The notes beneath the pieces were generated by a model. The model was not told where the DNA came from and searched no databases. It worked only from the letters and a program-made list of their open reading frames with translations. A stretch of DNA of 64,000 bases, from contig NZ_KV917368.1 in NCBI RefSeq assembly GCF_002019605.1, positions 5,061,670 to 5,125,669 on the forward strand. The letters are read 5' to 3'. The position numbers were made by a program, and so were the translations under genes. The DNA comes from Alkalihalobacterium alkalinitrilicum. Its GTDB lineage: Bacteria > Bacillota > Bacilli > Bacillales > Bacillaceae_F. Below are positions 1 to 36,981 of this stretch, piece after piece. Within the stretch, counting starts at the first letter, position 1; each line of letters starts with the position of its first letter.

Positions 1-449
1 TCATTTATATGAACTTTTATAGTCTCATCTTCATCATATGGAACAATTTCATTTTTGATGTGAATGGTTATCAAATCACAGAACCACTGTGACTGGGTAA
101 TATAAGCTTTTTTCCATTGATTATATATCTCCAAAACAGAGAACGTTGCTTTTAGATTTTTTTCTAGTTTGTTTTTTATGTAAGAAACTTCGCTTTGTGA
201 ATTACTAAAAAAAACAATTATATTTTTTTGGTTAAAAAACCAACATATGATATTTTTAGCTTTATTCGAATAAATCTTATCACTAATTTTTATAGAATCG
301 ATCCATTGATATTCAATTTGTAAGATATCTTCATTTATGTCTTTGATGTAAATTTTTTCAAAAACAGAAGGGGTTATACTATGAAAATTTTCTTTAGACA
401 AATTTTTATCAATATTAAAAAATAAAGAATCTTTTGCCCAAATTAACAT
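1..449 (-). CDS. Unknown prophage cargo protein, second gene of operon (3' end outside window)
   Basis: An open frame starts at ATG 449-447 after a strong ribosome site (GGAGG, about 455-462) and runs without a stop through the left edge, giving at least 149 residues. It begins MLIWAKDSLFFNIDK and is rich in Lys, Ile, Asn and aromatic residues. I see no signal peptide, long membrane helix or known motif. It begins 20 bases after the stop of the 435-residue gene upstream, so the two are almost certainly one leftward operon. Its position between the lysogeny repressor and the off-window integrase end is where prophages often keep genes expressed in the lysogen, such as superinfection exclusion or abortive infection genes. 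That role is inference from position only. Confidence 0.75.
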   Translation of the reverse strand, partial: MLIWAKDSLFFNIDKNLSKENFHSITPSVFEKIYIKDINEDILQIEYQWIDSIKISDKIYSNKAKNIICWFFNQKNIIVFFSNSQSEVSYIKNKLEKNLKATFSVLEIYNQWKKAYITQSQWFCDLITIHIKNEIVPYDEDETIKVHIN

Positions 450-469
450 AAACACCCCTCCTAATATAA

Positions 470-1777
470 TTACTTTTCAACTGAAACAACTTGATCATCT
501 TCATTTTCTTCATCTAGTTCACTAAGATCACTCTCAAGGAATTCTTTAATTTTCTCTAGGTTTTCATCTATTCCACTATAACCAACTGCATCTAAAATAA
601 TTTTATTATTATATACAATTTGATTAACTAATTCAAAGTAATCGTGTTCCGATTCTGCTTCTTCAAGTAAAGAGGCTAGGTTTTTATTTACGTTTAGTAT
701 ACCAGTTTCAATTACATTGTTAACAAACTTATCACCTTGTGCAAATTTTGTTTTAATTGTATCTAATAAGGCGTTTGTACTCTTCATATCTTTAATCCCA
801 TCAGAGCACATTTCGATATAATTATCTTGGATAAGTCTCATAACATTTTCTTTGAAAGTTTGGTCTTCAACGTCTACAATTACTATTTTCATTAAATCGT
901 ATTGTTTATCCTTCAATGAAAAAATAGCTGAAAACTCTCTGTCAGAATATATCATATTTAACTTAAATGATATTACACTGGTCCCTCGAGTAATATACTC
1001 ACATGCTAACTGAGATGAGAGTATATCATTCCCGTTAATTGTTACATTTCTAATTCCTTCACTATTTTGTAGCTTTCCAGTTGTATTAAATTTAATTTCT
1101 TTAAACTTTGAAATAAATCCTTCTGGAGCTAACCTGTTATTAATAAAATCCAACAAAACAGCTGTTTTAAAACTAATACTTCCAACTTGGAAGCTCTGGT
1201 TGGTTTTTTCGATAATCCTATATCCGACTAATGGCCATTTTAGTTCAACTGTACAAAAGTCCTTAACAACTTGGTGAATTAAGTCATTTCCAGCAAAAAT
1301 AGTTGCAACTTGTTTAACTTTATCTAACTCCAAATTTATGTTATGTACAGATGTAAGACTATTCATATCTAGTAATCCAGCAGTTCTCCATTTTTCGTTA
1401 TATGATTTAACACGAAGATTAAGTTTTAGAATGTTGTTTTCACTGTTAACTTCTTCAATTTTGATAATATAACTTCCAAGAAAAACATATTCTCTTTCCT
1501 CAATGTGATCTTCTATTCCATCAAGTTTATTAACTTTATACGTGAAGGCTGGTAAACCTATGTTCTTAGTCATAACAGCCATTTCAACAAATTCTTCTAT
1601 TTCTTCATCACGTATTAATGGGGATAAAGCAAGGAAATCATCAAAAAGATCTTTCTTTCGTTTTTGCTTTTTTTTATCATGTACCCACATTGGATTAACA
1701 GCTTTAATTACATCAATAACATTATTTTTATTTAATTTATCAAATACTCGTTTTAAAAGTTCTTGTTTCATTATCAT
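470..1777 (-). CDS. Unknown 435-residue prophage cargo protein, first gene of two-gene operon
   Basis: This gene is read leftward from ATG 1777 after an AGGGGA ribosome site; the next Met (1771) is spaced less well. The product is soluble-looking. It has a basic patch near residues 34-42 (DKKKQKRKK), a mixed alpha/beta middle, a helical C-terminal part and a very acidic tail (SELDEENEDDQ). I recognise no family and no catalytic signature: no Walker motif, HEXXH, HxxR or PIN residues. It lies downstream of the repressor on the same strand, separated by 240 bases containing a weak terminator-like hairpin, so it may have its own promoter. With the downstream gene it forms a candidate lysogen-expressed defence or exclusion module. 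Confidence 0.8.
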   Translation of the reverse strand: MIMKQELLKRVFDKLNKNNVIDVIKAVNPMWVHDKKKQKRKKDLFDDFLALSPLIRDEEIEEFVEMAVMTKNIGLPAFTYKVNKLDGIEDHIEEREYVFLGSYIIKIEEVNSENNILKLNLRVKSYNEKWRTAGLLDMNSLTSVHNINLELDKVKQVATIFAGNDLIHQVVKDFCTVELKWPLVGYRIIEKTNQSFQVGSISFKTAVLLDFINNRLAPEGFISKFKEIKFNTTGKLQNSEGIRNVTINGNDILSSQLACEYITRGTSVISFKLNMIYSDREFSAIFSLKDKQYDLMKIVIVDVEDQTFKENVMRLIQDNYIEMCSDGIKDMKSTNALLDTIKTKFAQGDKFVNNVIETGILNVNKNLASLLEEAESEHDYFELVNQIVYNNKIILDAVGYSGIDENLEKIKEFLESDLSELDEENEDDQVVSVEK

Positions 1778-1826
1778 AATTGAAATTCCCCTTATGTTTA
1801 ATTTTAATAATGAATTTAAAAATAAG

Positions 1827-1850
1827 ACACGCTCATAACAGCTGCGTGCC
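1827..1850 (-). terminator. Weak terminator-like hairpin between repressor and cargo operon
   Basis: Read leftward, CACGC (1828-1832) and GCGTG (1844-1848) can pair around an 11-base loop and are followed by a T-rich run. This could end the repressor message and separate it from the cargo operon. The stem is only about five pairs, so the call is tentative. Confidence 0.4.
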
Positions 1851-2017
1851 TCGTGTTGTGTTTTTATTTAATTTACTTATAAATTGCTTATAACAAGATC
1901 AATATTGAAGTAATCTTTGTAAAAAAGCCCTTATATTCATGGTAATTTATTTTGTAGATATCAATAGTTGAATTATTCCTACTAAAAACGGTGATATAAT
2001 TTTAATTTATTTAAGAG

Positions 2018-2452
2018 TTAATCTTTTTTCTTACGTTCCTTCGCTTTATGAGCCACCCACTCAAAATGCTTCAATACTTCTTCTACATCTTCACGGCTCA
2101 TATCTTTCCATTTATCAATATCATAGAAGCCTATATCTTTAATTCCTAGTTCATCCAGCCGCTTATTGATCTCGGCCAGTGGGTCAAATTTATCTTCTGG
2201 TAGCTTATCGAAGTCTATATATTGCTGGCCATCTTTTTCCACACCGAAATAAGGGACGTCGGTTCGGCCTAAAAGAAAATCAGTGGTGACACCTAACGTA
2301 TTTGCAAGATCGGTCAGCATTTCATTTGAAGGCGAGCTATGTCCATTTTCGTAATTGCTAATTGTACCCTTCGTCGTCTTTATTTTTTTAGCAAGACCTT
2401 CTTGAGTCAAGTTATTTAATTTCCTTGCTTTTTTAAGACGTTCAGAAAACAT
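2018..2452 (-). CDS. XRE-family prophage repressor (CI-like)
   Basis: A 144-residue DNA-binding protein with an N-terminal helix-turn-helix of the Xre/Cro class (about residues 5-60, with LTQEGLAKKIKTTKGTISNYENG) and a charged helical C-terminal half. It lacks the S24/LexA-type self-cleavage domain, so induction cannot be by RecA-stimulated autoproteolysis. It is divergent from a second HTH gene at 2631, with four repeated operators between them, the standard layout of a temperate phage switch. Its likely role is to hold the lytic promoter at 2558-2586 off by binding those sites. No ImmA-type antirepressor protease gene is visible in the window. Confidence 0.9.
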   Translation of the reverse strand: MFSERLKKARKLNNLTQEGLAKKIKTTKGTISNYENGHSSPSNEMLTDLANTLGVTTDFLLGRTDVPYFGVEKDGQQYIDFDKLPEDKFDPLAEINKRLDELGIKDIGFYDIDKWKDMSREDVEEVLKHFEWVAHKAKERKKKD

Positions 2453-2614: not shown

Positions 2615-2630
2615 AAAGGTGGTGCCATCA

Positions 2631-2867
2631 ATGAGAAAAAATACTCGATTAGTAAAAGCTAGAAAAGAAGCTGGATTAACTCAGGAAAAATTAGCAGAGT
2701 TATTAGAATGTCAAAAATCCACTGTTAGTAACTGGGAAAATGGTTATTCAGTACCAAGATTGTCTGATGCTTTTCGTATAGCTGAAATTTTAAATAAGGA
2801 TGCTAAAGAACTTTTTTTTGAAGATTTAGTACAAGATACTCATACACTCAAGGTGACTACTGCATAG
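2631..2867 (+). CDS. Cro-like XRE-family DNA-binding protein
   Basis: A helix-turn-helix protein of 78 residues with the Xre signature LTQEKLAELLECQKSTVSNW and little else, typical of Cro or early regulators facing the repressor. ATG 2631 is preferred because AAAGGTGG (2616-2623) lies at the right distance; a GTG at 2619 overlaps the ribosome site. It is the first gene from the rightward promoter and has an operator just upstream. It probably competes with the repressor during the lytic choice. Confidence 0.85.
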   Translation: MRKNTRLVKARKEAGLTQEKLAELLECQKSTVSNWENGYSVPRLSDAFRIAEILNKDAKELFFEDLVQDTHTLKVTTA

Positions 2868-36930: not shown

Positions 36931-36981
36931 GTCACCTTGACAGGGTGGAGGTCGGCGGTTCGATCCCGTCACGGGTCACCA
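36931..36981 (+). other. attR: 3' half of tRNA-Val(GAC)
   Basis: These 51 bases fold as the anticodon arm (TCACC/GGTGG with loop TTGACAG, anticodon GAC), variable region AGGTC, T arm (GGCGG/CCGTC, loop TTCGATC), acceptor strand ACGGGTC, A73 and CCA. The D arm and the 5' acceptor strand (expected GACCCGT) are absent just upstream. This is the displaced 3' end left when the phage integrated into the tRNA gene; the restored full gene should lie at attL, left of the window. Confidence 0.8.

Follow-up and report, generated by a model that had tools for sequence, protein, structure and literature searches.

According to the available part of PMC11077077, RexA of phage lambda is a non-specific DNA-binding protein with the RdgC fold, likened to Iml3/Chl4; its gene neighbours cI, and four transmembrane (TM) helices are predicted for its partner RexB. 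The same text states that RexA biases the lambda switch and that RdgC modulates RecA. In Pseudomonas putida, as far as the text of PMC12894663 is available, the model of the RexA relative shows a dimer that clamps DNA, and the four-TM RexB, once activated, damages the membrane. We report here that a 64,000-nucleotide stretch of Alkalihalobacterium alkalinitrilicum DNA (the window; G000:C1:5061670-5125669 of the 5.5-Mb genome) carries, at its left edge and inside a prophage, part of an operon of three genes, A, B and C, which is completed in the stretch to the left (labelled L002). We tentatively interpret A-B-C as a RexAB-like phage-exclusion system, in which A and B have predicted RdgC/RexA DNA-clamp folds and C has four predicted membrane helices.

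Other described systems share features with this operon. Kiwa (KwaA-KwaB) joins a membrane protein to a non-cutting DNA-binding protein, according to the accessible portion of PMC12904381. In the 'RdgC histone' operon, reported from Bacillus and Halobacteria, a histone gene is joined by genes for an RdgC-like protein extended at both termini by additional domains and for a membrane protein said to contain a winged helix; the part of PMC11390915 that is available assigns the operon no defence role. The Chl4-Iml3 (CENP-N/CENP-L) kinetochore heterodimer, an unequal RdgC-fold pair, serves as the model for the proposed A-B pairing. No description of the A-B-C triad itself was found among the papers listed from the open-licence PMC literature.

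Three linked genes and their predicted folds

A preliminary description of the window had placed a two-gene leftward operon beside a prophage repressor, with the integrase end beyond the left edge. The genes, the repressor and, once the sequence was extended, the integrase were all found as described, and both genes are real, but a third gene belongs to the operon: gene C, which encodes a predicted membrane subunit, lies beyond the window and overlaps gene B by 11 bases. Gene B starts at a GTG at 455 or at an ATG at 449, the latter giving 149+ residues in the window and a 20-base A-B gap. Since gene A has protein matches and the triad stands at 13/13 distinct loci, genes A and B are not chance open reading frames (ORFs).

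Table 1. Positions of the operon, its regulatory neighbours and the right end of the prophage (window positions unless a prefix is given).
Feature	Position	Strand	Description
Gene A	470..1777	(-)	ORF, 435 aa
Gene B	L002:16484-17125 = G000:C1:5061483-5062124; in-window part 1..455	(-)	213 codons; second RdgC-fold protein (predicted)
Gene C	L002:15385-16494 = G000:C1:5060384-5061493		ORF, 369 codons; outside window, left
Terminator-like hairpin	1824..1852	(-)	Between repressor and gene A; 9-bp stem, 11-base loop, then UUAUUUUU (U-rich run)
Prophage repressor	2018..2452	(-)	Cro/CI-type, upstream of gene A, same strand; HTH_3 E 9.2e-18
Cro-like HTH gene	2619..2867	(+)	Divergent; other half of lysogeny switch; ORF, assigned by eye
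Likely attR	36957..36981	(+)	Exact 25-base copy of tRNA-Val 3' end, prophage right end; one match in window

A protein search with gene A gave 24 matches at E <= 1e-3, self included, among the best 7,997 word-sharing candidates scored, and the relatives bear the names Bacillus, Virgibacillus, Paenibacillus, Brevibacillus, Priestia and others. The gene was found at 6 loci in public genome contigs and at 3 loci in viral contigs; it occurs in 2/397 genomes of the host order and 5/398 of the host class (own genome counted in each). With A as the sole query, tblastn returned no match among 50,697 records of phages and 72,556 of plasmids. Merging of duplicates (L013 and L019 with L004; L010 with L005; L001, L002, L003 and L014 with the window locus; L015-L018 with L020-L023) left 13 distinct loci, namely the window, L004 to L009, L011, L012 and L020 to L023. 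One of these, L007, on a 19-kb contig (JAHHHB010000116.1) of a cyanobacterial metagenome-assembled genome, is the sole locus labelled outside Bacillota; the contig is probably misbinned, because its A protein resembles Paenibacillus ones.

At all 13 loci the genes stood in the order A, B, C on one strand, with intergenic gaps of 5 to 61 nt (A-B) and -44 to +5 nt (B-C); the linkage in other genomes on which the preliminary description had staked its proposal was thus confirmed. Profiles of A, B and C each matched the same five of the 398 class genomes (own included), and those of B and C matched nothing beyond. Single-sequence searches, which need shared short words, brought up nothing but the query for B, and for C the query and one relative; the profile searches are the better evidence. 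With the B profile, a set of 26 genomes from a single genus yielded only the two matches already known. The pairwise distance matrices of the three proteins correlated over the 13 loci (r 0.85, 0.89 and 0.78; Mantel p 0.0001), the lowest pairwise identities being 28% (A), 16% (B) and 17% (C).

RdgC was the top structural match for the predicted model of A and, separately, for that of B, and the matches of both models include kinetochore subunits. The model of A comprises N-terminal helices (1-70), an RdgC-fold core (71-327), and C-terminal helices with an acidic tail. Two A proteins (L023:9226-10287; P0024) stop at 353 and 356 aa, ahead of these helices and the tail, which therefore seem to be dispensable or separable. 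The C proteins showed four hydropathy peaks in 12 of 13 cases, and three in L021.

No curated cut-off was reached by A, B or C in Pfam, PADLOC or NCBIfam, the Pfam and PADLOC scans covering the whole of B as well as its window part; sequence profiles of the three found no PDB chain of note. With PHROGs (A and the window part of B), the best line was phrog_23399, of unknown function, over the C-terminal part of A (E 0.0047). HTH_61 for A (E 0.019) and Peptidase_C54 for B (E 0.076) were set aside as weak lines under the Pfam cut-offs. At E <= 0.001 the RdgC profile PF04381 found nothing in the own genome, whereas the E. coli control matched. Nor did A and B prove to be sequence paralogues: comparison of their profiles showed no similarity, and the relation between them is one of predicted fold. 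PDB entries exist for RexA (8twq) and KwaB (9mrx and others); their absence from the matches listed for the A and B models is no evidence of difference.

The operon shares with RexAB (lambda; P. putida RexABpp) the combination, in one operon, of a soluble RdgC-fold protein, here A and B as judged from their predicted models, and a membrane protein with four predicted helices, here C as judged from hydropathy. It also shares the place directly behind a prophage repressor, in the window and at L004; the order in the lambda record is cI-rexA-rexB, and here it is repressor-A-B-C. Unlike the two-gene RexAB, it has a third gene at every distinct locus and two distinct RdgC-fold proteins instead of one, and its C proteins, at 352-376 aa against 142-144 aa in the four RexB compared, have an extra soluble part of about 180 residues. 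By analogy, then, the layout is the RexAB idea plus one subunit. Comparison with RexA and RexB by hhalign gave probabilities of 0.1 to 0.3%, with reference alignments of only 4 rows each.

Proposed mechanism

The preliminary description had cast the two visible genes as sensor and effector. This division did not hold, as both have the same predicted DNA-clamp fold; for that reason A and B would probably form one sensor, and gene C is the likely effector. We infer a heterodimeric clamp that would bind DNA and signal to C, with protection through membrane damage. A and B would join, in the manner of Chl4 and Iml3, to make a single asymmetric clamp, produced from the resting prophage; it would close on the DNA, or on DNA-protein intermediates, of an invading phage and, once closed, activate C, which would depolarise or permeabilise the membrane, so that growth stops and the infection ends. 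The acidic tail of A may keep the clamp shut until DNA displaces it; this tail is missing in the two short family members.

Two published observations argue against so simple a signal from clamp to membrane: in the available text of PMC11077077/PMC12894663, DNA binding by lambda RexA is not strictly needed for exclusion, and the P. putida Rex pair showed no two-hybrid interaction (PMC12894663).

Homology to recombination genes had been named beforehand as a ground for giving up a defence role. The predicted RdgC fold of A and B falls in part under this ground, but lambda RexA, an exclusion protein, has the RdgC fold too. A rival explanation is a DNA tether or nucleoid-organising complex, in which A-B would bind DNA and C would anchor that DNA at the membrane, serving to maintain the prophage or to fold DNA and not to defend the cell. 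The joint presence of histone, RdgC-like and membrane proteins in the 'RdgC histone' operon (PMC11390915, as available) points this way, as do the fold matches to kinetochore subunits, which join DNA to other machinery. We nevertheless consider this explanation improbable, as a housekeeping DNA organiser would not be expected to be as rare and patchy as the cassette is, or to occur mostly in mobile settings.

The two operons are alike in having three genes, Bacillus among their hosts, an RdgC-like protein with extra terminal domains and a membrane protein. They differ in the histone that the first gene encodes there, in the presence of a second RdgC-fold protein here, and in the winged helix of the published membrane protein, Pfam having given none for C. 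At 12 of the 13 loci no conserved ORF of at least 40 aa was found ahead of A, by position and sequence and with no histone profile run; L012, whose contig begins 204 bases before A, stood outside this check. The histone lead was also followed with PF00808 in 200 genomes and was dropped: the single locus that it gave (L052/L053) matched none of A, B and C and had neither an RdgC-like nor a membrane protein beside it.

Genomic settings of the cassette

In the window genome, the A-B-C cassette occupies the repressor-integrase slot of the prophage. Leftward past gene C lie, in order, a 125-aa ORF, an IS21 pair (IstB E 7.4e-55; Mu-type transposase C-terminal domain E 4.6e-18), an ImmA-like fragment, a second 125-aa ORF, a tyrosine integrase (Phage_integrase E 1.3e-26) and tRNA-Val. 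Because the last 25 bases of tRNA-Val recur exactly at the likely attR, the prophage spans about G000:C1:5055148 to 5098650, 43.5 kb end to end; terminase, portal, capsid and endolysin genes lie between the two copies. The 25-base end had no match in 100 shuffles and has four exact copies genome-wide. Two of these, at G000:C1:5129803 and 5153188, lie 31 and 55 kb right of attR, and may mark tandem-integrated further elements or other tRNA-Val genes.

The ImmA-like prophage gene downstream of gene C appears to be split by the IS21-family element (L002:11863-15434). Its fragment is 42% identical over 36 residues to the Peptidase_M78 protein of L004, and the Pfam scan does not call it M78.

The hairpin between the repressor and gene A (-12.7 kcal/mol, z -2.40; equal or greater stability in 4/200 shuffles) was absent from the output of a consensus terminator scan, which permits loops of 3-8 only. 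Given its position, transcription may not merely continue from the repressor: the operon may possess its own promoter. A consensus promoter scan gave 20 matches against 17.4 +- 3.7 in shuffles, which is no excess.

A phage, transposon, recombinase or restriction gene was found near 10/13 loci, one of them (L023) weak; the genes for these family scans were picked by eye and not exhaustively, and the count has no random-locus control. The window locus counts through its prophage. At L004 a repressor-type gene lies directly upstream, accompanied by an M78-family gene and a serine recombinase. Endolysin genes occur at L005, L011 and L020 (L005 additionally has an Mrr-like nuclease), and L012 is a viral contig with phage-family proteins. 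The remaining neighbours are TniQ at L007, an rlmH-type methyltransferase and a serine recombinase at L022, NERD-UvrD, HNH and GmrSD/HEC-05 at L021, and a weak type IV restriction match (E 3e-6) at L023. Among the few neighbours scanned at L006, L008 and L009 there was no mobile, phage or defence gene.

These settings bear on the possibility that the operon serves lysogeny or recombination control, as an RdgC/RexA-fold complex tuning the repressor switch, RecA or prophage excision. The published effects of RexA on the lambda switch and of RdgC on RecA (PMC11077077, as available) and the position directly behind a repressor-type gene in the window and at L004 speak for it; elsewhere, however, no repressor stands directly upstream of the cassette, whose neighbours there are lysis genes, TniQ, rlmH together with a recombinase, or restriction genes, and such a role needs no membrane subunit. 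We regard it as quite improbable.

Two of the placements deserve separate record. At L022 (8701-14097) the cassette comes straight after the rlmH-type gene and ahead of the large serine recombinase, a layout reminiscent of SCC-type elements. At L008:7813-9408 and L009:7907-9784, in two genera, it follows a TRAM-domain uracil methyltransferase gene; this recurrence points to an insertion hot spot common to both.

The 13-locus count leaves out a 14th place, L038, where a contig end carries a partial B together with a C. There B-C (L038:20-2479), and at L044 KwaB-KwaA (L044:1162-3092), each stand just before related HNH genes; at L038 the HNH gene is followed by a terminase-like gene (by eye). 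Since the two HNH genes are 84% identical over 109 residues, Kiwa and the A-B-C cassette appear to use the same prophage slot, a variable defence slot ahead of packaging genes.

This apparent common slot, together with the shared plan of a membrane protein and a DNA-binding partner (PMC12904381, as available), speaks for a Kiwa-like blockade, in which C would recruit or anchor the A-B clamp at the membrane, and the clamp would coat incoming phage DNA and stop its replication and late transcription while the cell survives. Membership of Kiwa itself had been suspected from the four-TM protein and was ruled out. Kiwa has two genes, and A, B and C gave no PF16162 (KwaB) or PADLOC line at E <= 1 and no similarity to KwaA or KwaB in profile comparison; a PF16162 search matched 4/61 genomes, the own genome being negative. 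These negative results also count against a Kiwa-like blockade, which we consider rather unlikely.

Taking the RexB-like and Kiwa-like modes together, a defence function of one kind or the other is likely. The idea of a co-operating prophage defence or exclusion system, put forward in the preliminary description, fits the linkage, the mobile and defence neighbourhoods and the RexA-like fold and position, and has to be amended in that the unit has three genes.

Implications for RexAB-type exclusion

How the DNA-binding protein of RexAB is coupled to its membrane protein is left unexplained in the available parts of PMC11077077 and PMC12894663. The operon described here offers a three-part relative from Bacillota, testable in B. 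subtilis, with the predicted DNA clamp split into two subunits. The large soluble part of C could be the coupling domain, which would make the coupling question of RexAB directly testable.

If the A-B heterodimer is real, the unequal RdgC-fold pair known from the kinetochore would have a counterpart in prokaryotes. The fullest version of this idea, which we put forward as doubtful, is that A-B-C is an undescribed anti-phage system of prophages and mobile elements, in which a heterodimeric RdgC-fold DNA clamp with the CENP-N/CENP-L domain plan would be wired to a membrane effector, and that it may represent a living version of the possible ancestor of the kinetochore pair.
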